Below are positions 1-62,499 of a stretch of 64,000 bases of DNA, piece by piece. How positions within the stretch are numbered: the stretch's first letter is position 1; each line of letters starts with the position of its first letter. Position numbers and translations under genes: made by a program. The notes beneath the pieces were generated by a model that saw only the letters and a program-made list of their open reading frames with translations, searched no databases and had not been told where the DNA came from. This DNA is from Sparassis latifolia. Its lineage: Eukaryota > Basidiomycota > Agaricomycetes > Polyporales > Sparassidaceae. Location of the stretch: positions 868,001 through 932,000 of the forward strand of contig CM031562.1 of the NCBI GenBank assembly GCA_018466975.1, given 5' to 3'.

Positions 1-1737
1 AAGGAAGAAGAATGTACACAGTCATAAGTAGCCTTTTTATTCTCTTCTCTTACGTGGTGTCTCGCTGAAGCCTTTCAGGCCGAGCACTGCTTCAATATTA
101 ATATGAATGTGGGCATGGGTTGTGTCAGTACCCGCCGTTGATGGTAGCAGTAGTCATGAATGAGTTTGACACTGCTCCGTTAATCGTGGGCTGCTCTAGA
201 TAGCGAGAGACTCATCTCCGACCGAGTCTGAAGTCGCGCAACACGCGACGCGTTTATCACCTGACTCACGTCAATGACAGGACAGTCACGAAGACGAAGC
301 AAAGACGAAGCCACTTAGCTTGAACTTATTTCAGACCGCATGGGTGTGGAATTTGCCTTTCATCAAGTACAGTATGTATTATGGCGAATATGGGGAAATT
401 GGTCTGGACACCACAGATTTGCCTGAGCAGCTCTTTGCTATCATGATGCTATAACTCCTGACAATATCTTTGTCTTCGAGGTGAACGGGAAGACACTACT
501 TGAGGCGTTCAAGCACTATAGGAATGCAATTCTGCTCGGCCATCTACCTCGAGAGCCGCTGGCGGCGACATGGCTCTCTTTTGCTTGTCGGACGCATTAC
601 ACTCGACTTCCCACTGGGCTAGTGGCGGTACTCTGAGGAACTTCGAATTGCCGGCTTCGTCTGTAAGTTAATGCTCTAGTTTTGATACCCCTTGTTGGCT
701 GTGCGCGTACGTTTCTCAGTCTGTTTGTTCATCCTTTGCGGTATGCCGTGCTTTGTTGGTCAGTTCCTTGGTCTTTCGACCTGTGTCATTGTCATTCCTT
801 TTTGGCTGGCTCCTTCTTCGTCTGGAGCTGGCAAGGGCTAAATTTAGTGGCTCCGAGCGACTCTCGGTCGAAGCCGACATCGAGACGCACAGAACATGCG
901 ACGGGTCTTCGTCGTAACTGCATGTTGAAAGAGTGCCGTGGGCTCTGTCGGTTCTTTAGACCAGACTCGGACACCTGGGAAATAACGTGTAGGCTCCACC
1001 GTTGCAGGGAAATGCTAGTTGGGTTTGCATGATGGGATTGAGCGAGCTTGCAGTGAGCCTATTGTCGTTTGTCTCACTTCGCTGAACCGTCTCTGCTCAT
1101 TGCATGGATCGCTGGCGGTGAATCCGTATGTAGTCAGGAGTTCGCGTTCCTGGCCGGATCAAGCGTATGGAGAAAAGACATTGCACATTACAGGAGGCAG
1201 TTGGAACTACGGTTTGACAATGAACAGTGGGCATCGACATCGGAGCCAAGTTGGAGGCAAAACATGGCATCGATCGTGATCGATCATGAATTCTGAATAT
1301 TGAATTTTGAAGTTTCTCACATTTTGTTGCTACGTTGGCTCGGAACGTTGATATCGTCTGTGTAGACGAAGTACTGCCCTCTTGAGCTTGAAGCTGAAGT
1401 CCAAAGTAGATGTATGAAATTGCCAGCCGGAGTTGTATCCTCACGTGGTGATGCAGTCTGATACTGATTCGTGCTTGGGGCTGACAGCCACATGAAGATG
1501 TTACAGTGCTTTGCAAATATGAGCAACGTTAATTGTCCCGCCACATAGAGCACAAGTATTCCGGGCGGGATCAAAGTAATCTTCTCGTAGATCTCGCAAA
1601 AAATATGAAGGTCCCTAGATGAGTACAGAGCGACAGCAGAATATAATACAGTGTTGATGACACCAATAAAGAGAAGATACAGTATCTATCCAAACAACAA
1701 TGCACGAAAACATATATACTACAGAGCTCAATACAAC
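1..1737. other. Intergenic stretch, no recognised gene
   Basis: No frame gives a protein I recognise. On the plus strand, about 466-633 holds one open stretch whose translation (starting near FVFEVNGKTLLEAF) has exon-like codon content, but I cannot join it to neighbouring exons. On the minus strand, a frame at about 1317-1574 with a hydrophobic run could be an extra 3' exon of the PB1-ZZ gene, because a donor-like GTAAGT overlaps that gene's proposed stop. Neither is strong enough to call. Confidence 0.4.
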
Positions 1738-4700
1738 TTACGGGTGATAGATGGGATAAGGAATAATTGGGGGACTAGGGCCGTTGGGGTCGTTGCCCAG
1801 TTCAGCGAAACGCCTGTCCGTGTGTCATCAGTGAGCGCCGCAAAGGTTATGCGGAGCAAACAAATTCTTACTTGAACATATGCATGTCAACCTGGGAACA
1901 GAGACGGCTGAGCAAAGCATCTAGACAGGGATAAGGGAATGAATACGCACCGACGACTTGAAGACGACGAAAGCGTGCGCATTGTCGTGCGTGTCTATCT
2001 CCTGGCACACTTCGCACAGGTCCCGCCCACAATATGCGCAGCGGTACCACGCGCCCTGTATTTTCATCATGCAACAATCGCACAGCAGACTGTTATGAAA
2101 CAGGTCCTTCAAGTATGCTACGATTCCGACGTCAGCAAGTACGCAGAGGCTACTGACATGCAGATGAACTACCTTTTGGATCATCACGGTTAAACGGGGA
2201 CAGCGATCCTACTGGTGCTTTGTATCTGTCCGGAATATTCAGTAGGACGGAGAGACAGGGCATTGATATACTGACAGCCTTGGGATGAAAGGATATTCCG
2301 ACTGTAGGGGGCGATCAACGGGTCGAGGGAATTTGAAGAAGATATGCATTGGGTCGTGTACAATGTAGGAGCGTTCCTCGCAGAGCGAGCACTGCAATTA
2401 GCAGTCAACACCACTCGCACGTTGTGAAAAAGTAAACATACAAGATTATATGGTCGTGGGATAGATGGGCATTCTGCGCACTGATATCGATTACCAACGA
2501 TATTCTATGAAAGTGCGTTAATACGGCTTCCATCACTATTCAGATCGTTCCAACACACCTGGTTACACCCATTACATCGTATCCCGTGATCATCCGTCTC
2601 GCTCGTCACAGAGACGTCGTCCAGCGCTGACGTTATGCCTATACGGGTGGACGAGCCGAGCACTGTACCATCATATGAGGAAATCAGCGAGTTGCGCCGC
2701 TCCCGCGATGTCACGCGCTGGCCGGTGGCAGCATCACGTCCAGTCCAGAGGCTCTTCGCAGTCCTACTGGCGGATTGGAGTTCGGCGGTACCAAGGGGGT
2801 ACGGGATCTTTGGACCAGTGATCAGTCAATTTCTGTGCTTTTGGGGATCGAGAAGAGGAGCGCGAGAGGTACCTTAATCATGATGTGTGAGGAGTTATGG
2901 CCCCCGTCCGATGAATCGAGATTGCCAGGAAGACCGGCCGACTCGCAGTTCGAGCATATGTCTATTGCTTCGCATATTGCACAATGGAACCTTGCACCAA
3001 CAATATCTTGCATGCAACTGCAAGGGAAGGTATTCAACGTCAAGAGTTCAACTGGTCTGGCAGAGAACATACTGCACGCATTTCACTCCGGGATGTGTCA
3101 TTGCTATATAAGAGGGTCAACAGACTAGATGCTTGACATCATACAAATCACTTACACAGCTCGCACGTCGGTAATGAGGGGGTGATACTGATGACAGGCA
3201 CGGACCGTGCCCTCACAGCTTTGTCTGGAACGACAAGGAAGGCGTGCGAAGGATGGATCTCATGTACTTGACTGAAGCACACCTGGTTAGACATCGCGAT
3301 GTAAATATAAATAAAGTCAACTGACCTGTAGCACGCTCGACACAAGTTGAAGTTCTTGCATGACGCGCACTTGAACCTATGGTTCACAATGACGGTGCTG
3401 CACCCCGAACATGTGCAGGACCGATGTTCGTCTTGCTCTTTAAAGAAGATCAATCAGTCAAACTAACCTCACTGGCAATGAAATGCCACGGATAGAAACC
3501 GACGCTCACCGACGTCCTGCCATCCCTTATGCCCCCAGCTCTTCTCGATGAATGCATGCCTCAACTGGCCCTTCTGGCTCGGCGCCGACCTACGCCACTG
3601 CGACAACGCACGCTGCGCGTCCTCGGGTGAGGATGGCCAGTCGCCGGAGCCAGGCGACGACCCCGGGGCGACGCTCATCTCAAGCGCATGCGTAACTCCC
3701 GCAGACTCAATGCATCCCCAGCACAGCTCGTAGCCCGTTTCCTTGGGTGTGCTGGGCATAGACTCCGGCGTCACTGCGAGGTACTTGGGGCTCGGGATCG
3801 CGGGAAGCGGTTTCCACGGCGCGTTGTCACCAAGTGGTCGGAGTGGGATGTCGGAGCCTGTGACGACAGACCAGGAGGAGAGCGAAGGTGATGTCGCGCG
3901 CTGCAGCGGTGACAGCGACGGCGAGTGCGCGTGCGAGCTGTGATTATGGCTGCGCTCGACGTACACCTCGCGGTCCTTGCCCTTCCCTCCGTTCTCCTGT
4001 GCGCCGGGCGGCTTCTTCTCCCCACACTTAGAGCAGACGTAGCGGATCGCGTCGAGGATCACCCCGCACTCGGAACAGCTCGGCGGATCCTGCGGGGGAA
4101 CGGGCGGGACAGTCGTAATGTACGGCAGTACGTCGTGCGGAACGTCCGGGTGCACAAAGTCCTGCGTAAACGTGGGCTCGGAGTTTGAGCGACGGGTGAA
4201 GGGGTTGGATACGGAGGAAGACGAAGACGAAGACGACGTAGATGCGGAGGACGCGCATCGGTGCAAGTCACTGGTTTCGCCGGATGCAGCGCCCTGCAGG
4301 TCAAACACGTTCACCTCCATCGACACCGGGCGGCTCTGCACCACCTCGTCCGAGCCCGCGACGCTCGTGCCGAGGTCATCATACACGCTCGAGCGGTCGT
4401 CGTACCCCGAGTCGTGTGCACTCTGCGAGCCCGCTGACGAGCCCGCAGTGTACGCAAAATAGTACTTCCCGCTCGAGTCCTGCTGCAGCGCAAGCTCACC
4501 GCCCATCGCAGAGCTCGCATCGTCGAGCATGTCTGCCGAGTCCGCACCACTGTATGACAAAGGGCGCGAGGGCACGTCTCCCAACATCGCCTTCACCGCC
4601 CGGGCGTTTTGGTCGCGCAACCACGCCGCGCCACGCTCGCTGTGCAACGTGGATGAACTGTGGCTCGAGCTCGCCTGCCGGGTATCCTCAAGCTTCAGCC

Positions 4701-5522
4701 GCTGGAAGACCGACGACGGGTCGTCACGGTGCCCGGAGTCTTCTGGGGGAGAGTCGTCGTCCAGGAACGGATTTGCGAGCGAGGACCGGGCGGACTGCAC
4801 ATCGCCCAGGTCCAGCGTCGGCGCAATACTGGGCACCGAGCTGGCTTCCCAGTCGTCTGGGGGCCTCGCTGGGCGCGCGATCAACGGCTCCTGGCTGGGC
4901 GCAGATACGATCGTCTTTGCACCGCGAGCACGGTAAAGTTCATACTTGGATCCCAGATCTTTCGAGCTGATAGTGACGGAGTCATCGTCAATTTCTGCGG
5001 GTGGAGGAGATGTGAACGAGAGCGAGAAATCGCTACCGTTACGGTTCCTGTACTCGTCTAGGCTGACTAGCGAAGACGTGTCCGACAGACTCGGCCCGTC
5101 GTACTCGACTGTGATCCGGACGCGCACGGTAATCTTTCCTTTGTTGAAGCTGCGACCAGATAGGATGGAAGCTGCTGACGAGATGGGCTCCTCGTTTGCA
5201 GGATGAAAGTATCGGATAGCTTCCGTGAGATCGGACTCGGTAGAGATGTCTGTGACTTCGCCGTCGTCGTCCGTATATGTGATCGCGTACGACGTAGCGG
5301 ACAGCGAGAAACATTCTTCAACCTGCGAACTCAGAATAAGACGAGTTCTACCAGAAGAGGTTTTCTGCTCACTCTTTGGCGGAGAAAATCGTAAGAACAT
5401 GTACGTGCAGAATTAAAGGTGATCCTCTTGTTTAAACCCTCGTAGGAGCACTTGACGACAAGAGCCTTGTCAGGACGTGTTTCCGTCCAGTCAATGTCAG
5501 ACGATCCATATTCGGAGGACAT
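1738..5522 (-). CDS. PB1 domain plus five ZZ zinc-finger protein (NBR1/p62-like)
   Basis: The start is the ATG at 5522, in the exon that opens the PB1 domain (KALVVKCSYEGLNKRITF). A 50-nt intron at 5323-5372 splices RQRV to EECFSLS and restores the acidic PB1 stretch (YTDDDGEVTDIST). After PB1 comes about 450 residues of Ser/Pro-rich, low-complexity sequence. A degenerate ZZ follows (CSECGVILDAIRYVCSKC, then ELCWGC after an insert). Four further ZZ modules lie at about 3250-3450 (CSGCSTVIVNHRFKCASC), 2860-3150 (HPGVKCVHCMQDIVGARFHC, after removing an intron), 2300-2600 (IRCNGCNQNIVGNRYQC) and 1950-2130 (CDCCMMKIQGAWYRCAYC). A 58-nt intron at 1814-1871 leads to a Pro-rich tail ending at 1738. 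PB1 oligomerises or pairs with other PB1 domains, and ZZ fingers bind N-termini or peptides; the layout recalls NBR1/p62 selective-autophagy receptors. I see no FW domain and no clear LIR, so the autophagy role is inferred. The exact 3' end is uncertain. Confidence 0.82.
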
Positions 5523-36900: not shown

Positions 36901-39110
36901 GACTTGGTCAAGAATGTTGTGACCAGGAACAAACCCGGCTTGATCAGGATGGATAAGAGTTTGAGCGACTTGGGACAGGCGCAAGCTTAAAGCTTTAGTA
37001 AAGATTTTGTAGTCGGTGTTGAGGAGAGTAATGGGATGATAATTTGCAATGTCCCATCTGTCCTTCTTCTTGTATAAGGGGCATAGCCAACTGTCAGCAA
37101 AAGCGGTATTGGGGGATACGCCAAAGGTGTGTATGTCATCATACACCTCTGTAAGGGTGTTAAGAACATTAAAAGTGGGTATTCCATCTGCCGATTGACC
37201 TGTGTATCGGGTTTTTAGGGATTTCCAAAATTCATATGGTAGTCCATTTAGGCCTGCAGCCTGACCATTCTGGGATAGGCGTAGGGCTTCATCCACAAGG
37301 TCAGTGGTCAGAGAGTCAGCTAGTTGTGTGTGTTCAGAGTCAGAAAAATGAGCGGTAAGAGCTGTCAGAGCTGTAGTGGTGGCTTGTGCACATTCCATGG
37401 GTGTGCAGGGGTCATATACAGTCTGTAGGTGATTGTGATAGTCACAGGCAAGTTCAGCCATATGATCCGATCTTGTGGCATAGGTAGGAGGGTTGGAATT
37501 TGGGTGACATAGAGAGAAGATGGCCTCACGAGACTTTCTCTGTTTACTAAGGTTTGACCAATATTTACTTGGGATTTCTGCCTCTAGGCAGTGTCGGGCA
37601 GCTGTAGAGAGGCCTATCTTCTGGGTATGTACACATTCAAGGTCAATTATATGTTGCTGAAGCATTGCAGCAGAGAGTTGGAGGGCAGGATCATCTTGAA
37701 TGTTAGTGGAGTTTAGCATAGCATTGAGCTGTTCATGAAGAACAGATATTTTTGATTGAAGTTAGGGGTAGCGATCTTGGCACATTTGCAGGCCACAGCA
37801 ATGACTGCATCTTTGAAAGTTGCAAAGAAAGTTTGTGGATTTTGTGTGAGTGAGCGAGATGGTAAGGAGTTCTGGATATCTTGTTCTAGTTTTCAGCCAA
37901 GGTAATCCACATCTGAGGCGAATTTGGCATCCTGGAGGAGGAAGAGAGGGAGGGTCCACCTGCCTTTCCCGATATGTGGAGCTTTTTGGTCGACAATGCA
38001 GACAGATATCAGATGATGATTCGTTGATACCACAGAGGCAAAGATTTGCCAGTCTGTGGCAGAGGCAAGAATTTGTGAAGAGACATAGATATGATTGATG
38101 AATAATTGACTGCTCATGGCTTGTTGTAGAAAAGAGAACGCTCGAGTATCCGGGAAGGTGGTACACCATCCATCTTGAAGACAGAAGTGTAGGTGTAGGT
38201 CAGTGAGAGCAGAGACAGCTGCAGTAGCATCTGGATGGCAAGGTAGTCGGTCCAGCACATCTTCCACAAGATTAAAGTTGCCTAGTAGAATATCCGGTCT
38301 GGGGAGATTGGCATTCTCCCAAGCGTGACGTAGTTCAGACCAGAAGTGTTCACTCTCAGTCATCCCGTTGGGTGCATAGACATTTAGGATTTTTAAGGTG
38401 AGTGAAGCATGCCAAGGTATCGTGAGGAAAAGGGCACGTCTGGGAATAAGGACAGTGGAGGTGACATTTTGAACATTGGTGACTTCCTTATTTAAAACAA
38501 TAGCAACGCCTTGAGCATTCGCGGTGTGTTCCGCAGCAGAAAAGTGGATGTCAAGGCGCTTCCCGAAGAGATGATGTAGACGGTCTACATATGTTTGGTC
38601 AAGGTGGGCTTCCTGAATGGCCAGGATGCCAAGTCGTTCGGACTTCATCAAAGCATGAATGGATGTCCACTTACTTTGGGTATGAGATGGATCACTTGCA
38701 CCATGACCACGTATGTTCAGGGAGGCCACTCGTAAAGACACACAAGTATTTTTCCTGGGCTTCTTCCTGCGGAGTTTCCGCTGTCGTGGAGCAGCCTGGC
38801 CATGTGGGGCATTTGGATATGTTGGTGGCTGCTCAGATGCACCAGATGAGAGCACCGTCAATGGGGCAGGATAAGAAGAGGCCAGGAGTGGTGACAATGG
38901 ATGTTGAGACAAAGCAAGAGAAGGAGAACATGAGGGAGATGACCCGCCGCCTAGCTCTACCTGCCCGTCCTCAGGGATAAAATTGGCAGGAGGGATTTGG
39001 TCCCCTCCAGGTAGGTGGAGGCACGAACTGGAAGCCATTTGCGAAGCCAGAGTGAGAGGTGATAATTGCAATGTGTTAGATGTTGGTATACCACTTCCCG
39101 CATACAACAA
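33907..39110 (-). pseudogene. LINE ORF2: endonuclease, reverse transcriptase, RNase H
   Basis: The endonuclease is at 37893-39110 (RVASLNIRGHG, LAIQEAHLDQTY, ILNVYAPNG). Its usual GDFN reads GNFN, IDRIY reads INHIY, and the SDH-type motif reads TNH, so three catalytic positions are changed. An in-frame TGA at 37893 (expected Trp) and a 1-nt frame change near 37750 precede the RT fingers (GVIVALDQEKAYDKVAHDYL). Another TGA at 36790 interrupts before the palm. The palm keeps the catalytic FADD (LFADDTTTYLSEYDS, about 36530). RNase H lies at about 34560-35295 (VTVYTDGSCLNNGDADA, NQAGEVVAVLVAA), with the D-E-D set visible. A CxxC...H...C knuckle (CSSCGCLDSIDHILTEC) lies near 34400, and the C-terminus ends near HWCPPVH at 33907. 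Reading needs frame jumps, so no intact protein is made. Confidence 0.88.
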
Positions 39111-59359: not shown

Positions 59360-59901
59360 CTACAGAGACAAGAATTGATAGAGAGCAGGCAACCTATTCT
59401 GCTGGTACATCACGTCGGTGACGTCGTCCTTCAGTAGCATGCGCAACTCTTCTAGCGGGACGTCGACGCCCCGTTCAGCCAGCTTACGCTGCGCGACGGC
59501 CTCCCAGTCGACTTGGGGATATGTCTCCATTGCTACTGACAGATGATCCCAACCACGGAAGCCGCATTTGAGAGCAAGCTCGTCTCGCTTTTCTTCGGCG
59601 AGATTGGTAAAATTGTTGAGTGCCTGCGCCCTGTCAGCTGCAACGTCACCTGAGGATAAGAAAACAAATTTACTCGTCTCTCTAGCCTATCGATGTGCCT
59701 GTCTATCATCCTTATATCATCCATCATGGAATTATATTCCTCCTTGGTAAAGACGACGACATCGGAGTCCACAACTGACGTCGTGGAAGTCGGCTGTGTC
59801 CTGGCTTCTCTTGAACCCCAAATTGAACGCCTTGGAGTCCAACGCGGCAAGACACGCGGCCTTGCAGAAAAGACACTTCGAGATGAGCGTGTGAGAAACA
59901 T
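59360..59901 (-). CDS. Putative mitochondrial protein of unknown function
   Basis: The start is the ATG at 59901, MFLTRSSRSVFSARPRVLPR, an Arg/Ser-rich stretch without acidic residues typical of a mitochondrial presequence. Exon 1 continues with VVVFTKEEYNSMMDDIRMID and RHIDRLERR. A 50-nt intron with acceptor GCGCAG joins it to ALNNFTNLAEEKRDELALKC, GFRGWDHLSVAMETYPQVDW and RKLAERGVDVPLEELRMLLK, ending YQFLSL at 59360. The C-terminal part looks helical. I recognise no domain name. The 57 bp upstream of the start are followed directly by an inserted hAT-type element, so the native promoter is interrupted. Confidence 0.68.
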
Positions 59902-59957: not shown

Positions 59958-59965
59958 ATGGAAAG
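59958..59965. repeat. Left 8-bp target-site duplication
   Basis: ATGGAAAG, identical to the octamer at 60838-60845, immediately outside the left inverted end of the element. Confidence 0.8.
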
Positions 59966-60837
59966 CAAGGGGCATGCACCGGCAGATTCCGAGACACAGG
60001 GTAGGGGGAGGGGGGGGGGGCTCCGAGGCCCTTAACCGGAAATTATATATATATATTTAAAACCTGCATAAAATATCCTAAGCACCATGTCGGTCGGAAG
60101 GGGCCAGCAGTCTCACGAATATAAGTTGTGGTGAGCACAGTCCTTTAAGCTTTAATTGTTTTCATTACTCTAACACCAACATCTCAAATCTTTAGCTGTT
60201 ACCCTCGAGTCCCACGGGCGAGCCATCTACCTATCAGCTGGACGGTCCTGATCTAGCGTTGCGGGCTCAACCTGTGACCAACCGGTTGGATATTCCTATT
60301 GATCCTAAGCTTCCACCTGAGAGCGAAGAGGATTTGGACATCGACATAGCAACCCAGCACTCGACGGAGCCAGTAAACTCGGAATCCCACGAGGAGACTT
60401 TCTGCTGGTGTCAAGGTCCTGAATCGGGGGAGGCAGTACATCTGGCTGTAAGCAATGGGTGTGTTGACTTATCATTATTTTTCGTCGTTGCATCTCACGT
60501 CCGCGTTATCCTGCTGTCAGTACCACTTTGAATGTGTCGACCTCCTGGAGCCACTGAAAGGCCCATGGTTTTGCATGGATGAATGCCATGCAAAATATCA
60601 GAAATCTCATGCGCACAAGAAAAGGAGAACAATGTATTGATCCGCGTGTAGTTACAGAGCTATATTGATAGTATATGCATCGAAAAACCTTTGTCTCTAC
60701 TCTCCACGCGAAAACATACAGAAACCTTCCATATATGGACCGTGGGAAATTCACACGGGGGGAGGGGGGGGGTCTCAAGGGTGCTTAACCGGATTTTCTG
60801 ACCCTGTGTCTTAAATCCGATTTATGCATGCCCCTTG
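59966..60837. mobile_element. hAT-type non-autonomous element carrying PHD-finger exons
   Basis: 872 bp bounded by inverted ends. Both start CAAGGGGCATGCA (13 of 13 matching) and share GACACAGGGT 14 nt further in. Eight-bp duplications (ATGGAAAG) flank it on both sides. An 8-bp duplication and ends of the form C-A-A/G-N-G are hallmarks of the hAT superfamily. There is no transposase. Next to each end is a G-rich tract followed by CTTAACCGG (about 60003-60040 and 60758-60793); these two lie in direct, not inverted, orientation. The interior holds PHD-finger coding exons in forward direction. The element lies between two divergent genes. Confidence 0.8.
60196..60640 (+). CDS. PHD-finger protein fragment inside the hAT-type element
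   Basis: An exon open from an acceptor at about 60195 reads LLPSSPTGEPSTYQLDGPDL and continues EETFCWCQGPESGEAVHLAV to SNGC at 60462. A 58-nt intron at 60463-60520 leads to YHFECVDLLEPLKGPWFCMD, then KKRRTMY and stop at 60638-60640. Ligands visible are C-W-C, C-YHFEC and W-F-C-x3-C; the third cysteine expected after GEAV is absent, so one zinc site looks incomplete. PHD fingers usually read histone H3 tails. An upstream ATG at 60088 (MSVGRGQQSHEYKLW) with a GTGAGC donor is nearby but does not join in frame, so the start is unknown. Probably a captured or decaying gene part. Confidence 0.6.
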
Positions 60838-60845
60838 ATGGAAAG
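60838..60845. repeat. Right 8-bp target-site duplication
   Basis: ATGGAAAG, exact copy of 59958-59965, directly after the right inverted end. Confidence 0.8.
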
Positions 60846-60937: not shown

Positions 60938-62499
60938 ATGGACCTCCTCAGTCTGAACGACGATATCCTCTCCCTCATAGCAGCTCTTCTGTCTTCAAGA
61001 GACGCGCTTTCTTTGTCTCGCACAAGCAGGAAAGTCCATGTGATGGCGAAGCGACACGCTCTCTCGACGGTCGAACTCACTTCCTCGGGTCAACTCGCAG
61101 CCTTTTGCACATATATGCTCTGTGATGTGTCGACTCACTTACTGTGTCTGCGAAGCCTGAAGGTGACCCTGTCTGCGGTTGGAGTGGAAGATGAGGGAAT
61201 GATCGACTATGCCAGCTTCAACAGCGCGTCTCTGCTTGCGGCACTTATCGGACAGGCATCTCGTCTCAGATGCCTTTCGATTAGCTGCTTAGATGAGCTC
61301 ATAAAAACCGAACCTCATATTGGGGCTGCTGTTGCTTCTCTTCCTAACCTCGAGAAGCTTGAACTGCATGAAGTTGGTGCACGCGCACTCGACGTAGTGA
61401 GGAGGCTGCGGAGCAGGCCCCGCGTACTTAGCCTGCACTACTACGGTAGCAAAATCAACTCGAATCCAATCTCCTATACCCTTCGCAATCTTCAAAACCT
61501 ACAGATCGTCCGCCTCTCGGGTATCGTCTGGCCAGAGGAAGATAGTGCACCCGTCTGGACTAAGCCATGGCTCGGCGTCCGTGAACTCCAGGTGATGTAC
61601 AGTGAAGCTCCCATGACGGAATTCGTCCGCGCATTTCCCAATGTTCGCAAGCTCAGTATTCGGGGATTGTATAGAATCTATGACCACGTTCAAGAGCCGT
61701 TGTGCTGGCATAGCTTGGATTTCATCCATATCTACCAGTATGACGATCTTGCTCGCTGGAAGATAACTTGTCCCGTCTTTTGGCTGCGGTACGAGCAGTT
61801 CGGGACGTATCCACAGCAGATACGCAACATCGTCAATGCAGTGCGGGACATGACGCCCCGTATACTGTCCTTGACAGTCTGCCCGATTTCGAAAATCGAG
61901 TTCTGGACCGGTCTAGCGGACGTTGCTTCAAGACTCAGATATCTGGACCTCCGCTTGGGAAATCTGAGTCGACGTTCAAACTCTAGCTACCTTGCAGAAT
62001 GGCTGGTGAGATTGGTGCCATTCAACACAGGACAAAATTCGCGCATGCTGACATCAATGATATTCAGGATTCTATGCCTCCAGTCCTCGAATTGAATATA
62101 ATCTGCATCCGAGTGGGTGTAGACTCCAGGATGGTGCACCGTCCATTGACTCCAGGACACACAACCACTCAGCGTCCACCCTTGCGTCTTGCATCGTCCA
62201 TTCCCTCGCTGAGGTACATCGCTCTCGATCACGATATTGTGAGTAGCGGCACCACAGCACTCCCTATGGTGGAGAATGCGTCTTGGTATCGCGCCTGGGG
62301 ACCCGCGGAAGAGCGTCAGGTGCATACAATTCCGTCCCATGTGGGTGTGCGCGTCCATGGGTACTTGCATGCCGACGATATGGAGTCACTCGAGAAGCTC
62401 GAAGGTGAGCGTTTCTTATTCTAACACACTGTTGGAGCAAGTGCACTGAATCTTTTTGAAGAACTGTTCTCGCCGTCAGAAGTAGCCAGGAAGGACTGA
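60938..62499 (+). CDS. F-box/LRR-like protein
   Basis: The start ATG at 60938 opens an F-box-like helix set (MDLLSLNDDILSLIAALLSS, RDALSLSRTSRKVHVMAKRH). It is followed by LRR-like repeats (LPNLEKLELHEVGARALDVV, LRNLQNLQIVRLSGIVW, FPNVRKLSIRGLYRI, SRLRYLDLRLGNLSRR). Exon 1 ends SSYLAEWL at about 62008. A 74-nt intron joins DSMPPVLELNIICIRVGV, and further exons give LRYIALDHDIVSSG and HADDMESLEKLE. A last intron leads to the exon ELFSPSEVARKD, stop at 62497-62499. About 480 residues. F-box proteins supply substrate specificity to SCF ubiquitin ligases; the target is unknown. It is the right neighbour of the hAT-type insertion: the right target-site copy ends 92 bp before its start codon. Confidence 0.82.

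Follow-up and report, generated by a model that had tools for sequence, protein, structure and literature searches.

The DNA analysed (the window) is a stretch of 64,000 bp covering positions 868001-932000 of contig 11 of Sparassis latifolia, the genome of which measures 41.4 Mb and is assembled in 22 contigs. Two divergent genes are here separated by an element of 872 bp (59966-60837), hereafter called M1, which is delimited by identical 13-bp inverted ends. One inner box lies inside each end, and the same octamer is found outside both (Table 1). The ends, boxes and duplicated octamer that the original prediction had described are exact to the base. The start codons of the neighbouring genes lie 1036 bp apart now, and 156 bp apart once the element and the duplication (872+8 bp) are subtracted, a computed spacing which bears out the proposed insertion into a short divergent space. 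No transposase was found within the 872 bp among open reading frames or by Pfam. M1 had been regarded as a non-autonomous DNA transposon, and both this result and the seven young copies described below, which speak for recent mobility, uphold that view.

Table 1. Features of the M1 locus (window coordinates)
Feature	Position	Strand	Remarks
Neighbour gene, leftward	59360..59901	-	start codon 59901; at least one intron predicted; no Pfam family
Left 8-bp target-site duplication ATGGAAAG	59958..59965	.	sequence
Left 13-bp TIR CAAGGGGCATGCA	59966..59978	+	sequence, genome pattern counts
Left inner inverted box AGACACAGGGT	59992..60002	+	sequence
Left G-tract, then CTTAACCGGA	60000..60040	+	G-tract and CTTAW box found again near the right end, same orientation
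TATA-like AT run	60044..60062	+	just within the common left end; sequence only
Possible first exon, ATG, donor GTGAGC	60087..60130	+	predicted from sequence
Exon: acidic linker and first PHD half	60210..60462	+	frame open from 60196, start predicted; ends GGGTGT, then poor donor GTTGAC
Last exon: second PHD half to stop TGA	60521..60640	+	stop 197 bp short of the right end of the element
Right G-tract and CTTAACCGGA	60757..60793	+	direct repeat of the left one, 78%
Right inner inverted box	60801..60811	-	sequence; complement of AGACACAGGGT
Right 13-bp TIR	60825..60837	-	sequence, genome pattern counts; exact complement of CAAGGGGCATGCA
Right 8-bp target-site duplication ATGGAAAG	60838..60845	.	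sequence
Neighbour gene, rightward	60938..62095	+	start codon 60938; F-box/LRR-like, under Pfam cut-offs

A palindrome resembling a CArG box (CCATATATGG, 60729-60738) lies within the right end of M1; altered forms occupy the equivalent place in M1 relatives, and an intact one is present in the loci L078 and L079 (see below). Elsewhere in the window, the 8 kb between 36001 and 44000 feature a GC skew of about 0.2, unlike the rest of the window, and enclose an endonuclease-like retroelement frame recognised by eye (37893-39110, minus strand).

According to ORF geometry, another M1 copy (L012) also separates two divergent frames, whose first ATGs lie 111 and 59 bp away from it; a further one (L015) sits 42 bp upstream of one frame, and Pfam assigned no family to the frames beside these two copies. 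Among eight ORFs scanned in the flanks of other M1 copies, one gene was recognised by Pfam, a tRNA ligase. The orientation of flanking genes was also monitored by codon usage, with a model trained on the genes of the window, in the 38 flanks of 19 insertions. At a low threshold 8 flanks point away from the insertion, 5 toward it, and 25 gave no call. At a higher threshold 1/38 flanks scored, against 822/3872 flanks of random window points, a comparison biased by the training of the model on the genes of that same window.

Copies of M1 and the family of related ends

M1 is found in at least seven full-length copies on five contigs, 98-100% identical, all copy counts being lower bounds. Each of the seven is flanked by a perfect 8-bp duplication of its own. 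The mean pairwise substitution among them is only 0.42%, which marks the amplification as recent; divergence is greatest in the window copy and one C9 copy, each of which departs from the majority by six substitutions. The original prediction had staked itself on the existence of a second copy of the ends somewhere in the genome, and survived. Across the 41.4 Mb of the genome the exact 13-mer end was counted 18 times, and its reversed control not once. Fourteen occurrences are the ends of the seven elements, and two the right ends of shorter relatives. The last two (C7:317449 and C8:3008303) look like chance, the inner box being present beside the other 16 only. The loci L074 and L080, featuring the 13-mer without the inner box, were rejected as elements, and L075 and L076 were set aside as right ends only.

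The ends of M1 also delimit other sequences. The M2 elements, about 420 bp long and at least five in number, match M1 over approximately its initial 81 and terminal 113 bp but have a different middle. At least eight elements of another type (M3) feature the same end regions and again a different middle, two of these M3 elements being broken up by other insertions; two further M1 relatives are known as right ends only. A looser left-end pattern turned up at 34 places, its reversed control at 1, and reveals additional end types. Target duplications were sought in 21 elements, allowing the ends to shift by up to 3 bases: 18 are perfect 8-bp duplications, one has one mismatch, and two do not match. 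A G-tract followed by a CTTAW box is found near both ends of M1, of an element residing on contig 10 and of an element nested on C12, and also at the right end of the C12 relative described below; at the threshold used it was flagged only on the right side of the M2 example, and only on the left side of the M3 example. Judged by its sequence, M1 is a member of a broad end-family of Sparassis latifolia, distinguished by CAAGRG... ends, an ACCGG...CCGAGAC left box, and the G-tract plus CTTAW box. As far as seen, M1 and its relatives have in common the PHD exons and the subterminal boxes only, not the rest of the interior.

Two large loci were considered as autonomous parents and discarded, some of their ORFs being scanned with Pfam. 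L071 (C4:2250482-2257746; 6.3 kb between ends) is a copy of the 420-bp type interrupted by another transposon. The large insertion, approximately 1208-4828 of the locus, contains tyrosine-recombinase-like and reverse-transcriptase-like frames recognised by eye (DIRS-like), and the three L071 frames scanned had no significant Pfam family. L072 (6.9 kb) is likewise a copy of the 420-bp type, split by other sequence and by a related element, some 510 bp long, nested within it. The nested element (L072:6879-~7388; C12:359275-359784) is inserted within a C run, has ends CAAGAGGGCCCAG.../CCAGAGGGCTCCG..., and represents one more end type of the broad family. L078 (C15:283000-284500) and L079 (C14:211300-212800), which are 99.6% identical, hold M1-like right-end pieces between long inverted repeats. 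The pieces match M1 positions 742-786 and 834-872, include M1-specific bases just within the common end, and reside outside any complete element; as relatives bearing the PHD the two loci were rejected, no PHD being seen in their frames and no further copies being found. L077 and L097 are lone right-type ends, with no partner in the sequence examined. The virus collection gave no match to the ends, and none to the C12 PHD.

PHD exons in M1 and in diverged elements

With the putative splicing, deduced from the sequence and dependent on the poor donor, the exons of M1 encode a degenerate PHD finger of the ING type. The window reading matched YNG2 (7vvu, 2.5e-6), YNG1 (2jmi, 2.7e-5) and ING1 (9m4r, 6.4e-5) among PDB sequences. 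The zinc ligands are only partly retained, the second ligand pair missing its first cysteine, and the usual tryptophan is lost as well. At E 0.1 Pfam gave no family for the reading of 138 residues, and a slightly altered reading reached E 0.16 only. The PHD-finger exons announced by the original prediction are thus PHD-type indeed, in degenerate form.

The parental PHD gene that the original prediction had called for was not found. Searched in six frames with the M1 reading, the genome gave 16 matches: 14 are accounted for by the seven copies, one falls at C10:3824779 (E 0.017), and one has an E of 0.25; no parental host gene emerged. The protein collection contained no homologue of the M1 PHD, though it includes fungal relatives of another gene of the window (219 hits), and the miss may be taken as informative, not conclusive. 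The one ING-domain match of the genome (C5:4111067) lies away from the elements, and no ING N-terminal domain was seen in the PHD-bearing transposons.

The weak match at C10:3824779 resides in the contig-10 element, which spans 925 bp (L095:896-1820), has CAAGAGGGTGGCA ends on both sides and the duplication AGGAACCG, and contains a homologous PHD. A genome search with this second PHD gave 9 rows at 7 loci: itself, C4:922175-922470, the window element, C12:351846, C6:1500164 (E 0.13), C11:4339905 and C8:687527. The C4 sequence is a close relative of the contig-10 PHD, and sits just inside a left end found independently (C4:922882). The C12 and C6 PHDs lie 5.7 and 7.0 kb downstream, on the same strand, of left-type ends with two and three mismatches, respectively, the chance of a random match within 8 kb of such an end being about 0.003; the corresponding candidate intervals are C12:346179-352194 and C6:1493206-~1500500. 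No listed end is found near the C11 and C8 loci.

The C12 PHD, contained in L034 (C12:351397-354504), is intact and comes after an acidic stretch, in a frame that stays open over 146 codons to the edge of the locus. It has the zinc ligands of an ING-type finger, passes the Pfam PHD cut-off (26.4 vs 24), and matches YNG1 at 9.7e-11 among PDB sequences. A right end starting CAAGAGGGTGG follows its stop. The left end at C12:346179 agrees with this right end in the first six bases only, and their pairing is a proposal. No candidate for a long relative of the C12 PHD was retrieved by a padded query.

The three PHDs are homologous (C12-contig 10, E 6e-16; window-contig 10, E 7e-9; window-C12, E 5e-9). 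Each has its intron acceptor at the same codon (phase 0), and the stop lies at a similar distance from the right end (197 bp in the window, 191 bp in contig 10, 241 bp in C12). Because domain, place and splice acceptor are the same in diverged elements, descent from a larger element with a gene ending in a PHD is the best explanation. At a rough probability of 0.7, M1 is a short non-autonomous transposon, an internal-deletion derivative which kept the last exons of the gene of its parent, was moved in trans, and multiplied very recently. The larger parent would carry a gene of its own terminating with an acidic linker and a C-terminal ING-type PHD. Internal deletion would have spared both ends and the last exons, at the expense of the remainder of the gene, and the contig-10 element would be a derivative of the same kind. 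A transposase supplied from elsewhere would then mobilise M1 in trans; M1 itself landed, with its 8-bp target duplication, in the 156-bp divergent space. The longer frame of C12 may encode the transposase or a partner protein. The weakness of the C6 match, the agreement of the C12 ends in only six bases, the two of seven PHD loci with no listed end, and the limitation of the sequence seen in common to PHD exons and subterminal boxes count against this reading.

The original prediction had likened M1 to Pack elements; on this view, M1 or a recent ancestor would have taken the exons from a host PHD/ING gene and then spread them. M1 is non-autonomous and has TIRs and a duplication, as Pack-TYPE elements do, and the 420-bp relatives, with which it has only the ends in common, differ from it in their interior; moreover, the PHD belongs to the host ING type, and an ING gene is present at C5:4111067. 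Host-captured DNA was not recognised, however: the two genome matches outside the seven copies are one in another element and one of E 0.25, the protein collection is silent, and the common splice acceptor and right-end distance in diverged relatives argue for descent. Capture is quite unlikely. As no parental host copy was found, and a homologous PHD occupies the same place beside the right end in relatives, the PHD looks like inherited transposon content.

The PHD could also be a separate cargo or accessory gene, distinct from that of the transposase, acquired ancestrally by the transposons for their own use (e.g. against silencing) and carried by the short elements as a small working gene with a TATA-like sequence and a start codon. 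Upstream of the PHD, M1 indeed has a TATA-like run, a possible ATG and a possible first exon, the PHD is present in three or more lineages, and fungal transposons are described as carriers of TET/JBP genes in the accessible text of PMC12730594. Yet zinc-ligand and cage positions are lost in the M1 PHD, the C12 PHD is the end of a longer acidic frame, and the frame is altered in 4/7 M1 copies. The C10 copy and one C4 copy have in common a 1-bp deletion in the PHD exon (alignment column 461), which sits in a G run and could reflect faulty assembly; a 7-bp deletion at the end of the exon (columns 666-672) is common to the C7 copy and one C9 copy. That two pairs of copies have indels in common, at different sites, suggests renewed movement of frame-altered copies, so the frame is probably dispensable in cis. 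A working accessory gene is thus an unlikely explanation.

Transposon class and relation to known systems

M1 had been assigned to the hAT type. The 8-bp duplications, found in 7/7 M1 copies and in 18/21 family members examined, fit this assignment, though they are not unique to hAT elements. The ends are short and start CAAGG, and the consensus of hAT-type termini, itself short, fits such ends. The genome contains 27 matches to the hAT dimerisation domain, but all of those listed fall outside the mapped elements and the candidate intervals of C12 and C6; dimerisation domains split by introns can escape the genome search. The target preference of hAT elements is nTnnnnAn, and was not observed here, T occupying position 2 in 10/36 cases (18 duplications, symmetrised), a weak criterion. 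Duplications of 8 bp are also attributed to Zisupton and Dileera (accessible text of PMC12730594), and of 8-11 bp to MULEs (accessible text of PMC6446971). The length of the duplication therefore stood as a fit, not as proof of the hAT type. That the M1 family is truly hAT is a tentative view, somewhat short of even odds, and the derivation of M1 by deletion would hold with a hAT parent.

As to other classes, the 8-bp duplication taken alone is compatible with MULE and Rehavkus elements. KDZ elements are very abundant in Sparassis latifolia, at least 164 transposase matches being found in the 41-Mb genome; every match listed is located away from the mapped elements and from the two candidate intervals on C12 and C6.

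Ds is the internal-deletion derivative of an autonomous DNA transposon, Ac. Like M1, derivatives of the Ds/Ac type keep both ends and a fragment of the parental gene, have no transposase, and are moved in trans; M1 differs in that the piece kept is the C-terminal pair of PHD-finger exons, and its parent is a proposal. Plant Pack-TYPE elements, as described in the accessible text of PMC8903248, are similarly non-autonomous, with TIRs, a duplication and coding exons inside. Their exons are captured from host genes, whereas the M1 exons reappear in diverged relatives and could be traced to no host gene.

The closest relatives of the element PHD with a solved structure are the fingers of the ING family (YNG1, YNG2, ING1-5). 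Unlike these, the element PHD is encoded inside transposons, with no ING N-terminal domain seen. ING PHDs bind H3K4me3.

Among transposon proteins, a PHD finger is on record for the RAG2-like group and for Rehavkus (accessible text of PMC7204232, PMC4411706 and PMC6446971). The RAG2-like proteins of RAGL transposons are transposon-encoded and feature a PHD finger at the end, as here, and the RAG2 of jawed vertebrates has an acidic stretch before the PHD, as the C12 frame does. In contrast, RAG2L proteins have kelch repeats, of which none was seen in the fungal sequence, and belong to animal Transib-type elements, and those of invertebrates are reported to lack the acidic linker found here (accessible parts of PMC7204232 and PMC4411706). 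The PHDs of mouse RAG2 and sea-urchin RAG2L bind methylated H3K4 (PMC7204232, in the part available). Rehavkus, a MULE-related group, has the PHD finger in the transposase and a 9-bp duplication, close to the 8 bp of M1; compared by description, it differs in its hosts (arthropods, annelids), in the length of the duplication and in its minisatellite (accessible text of PMC6446971). Fungal DNA transposons carrying TET/JBP genes, KDZ and others, also contain a protein related to chromatin or DNA modification, a dioxygenase in place of the PHD reader found here, and the term 'PHD' is absent from the main text of the source (PMC12730594). Among the matches listed in the open-licence literature, no fungal transposon with an ING-type PHD was found.

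By analogy with ING and RAG2 proteins, a fungal transposon lineage may be envisaged whose transposition protein ends in an ING-type PHD reading promoter chromatin through H3K4 methylation, and steering insertion to promoters such as the 156-bp one; M1-like short copies would be trans-mobilised leftovers still carrying the reader exons. This larger scheme is doubtful at present.

The exons of an unread parent transposon may pass for captured host genes, and such elements call for caution. At the M1 locus itself, nature has supplied a candidate regulatory change, a young insertion in intergenic space common to both neighbours, with putative effects on expression such as the uncoupling of the two genes or the donated promoter envisaged by the original prediction. 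If true, the proposed lineage would give fungi an equivalent of the RAG2 arrangement, its PHD likewise preceded by an acidic stretch. Guidance of cut-and-paste insertion by a chromatin reader could be put to a direct test in such a fungal lineage, whose PHD is C-terminal and of the ING type.
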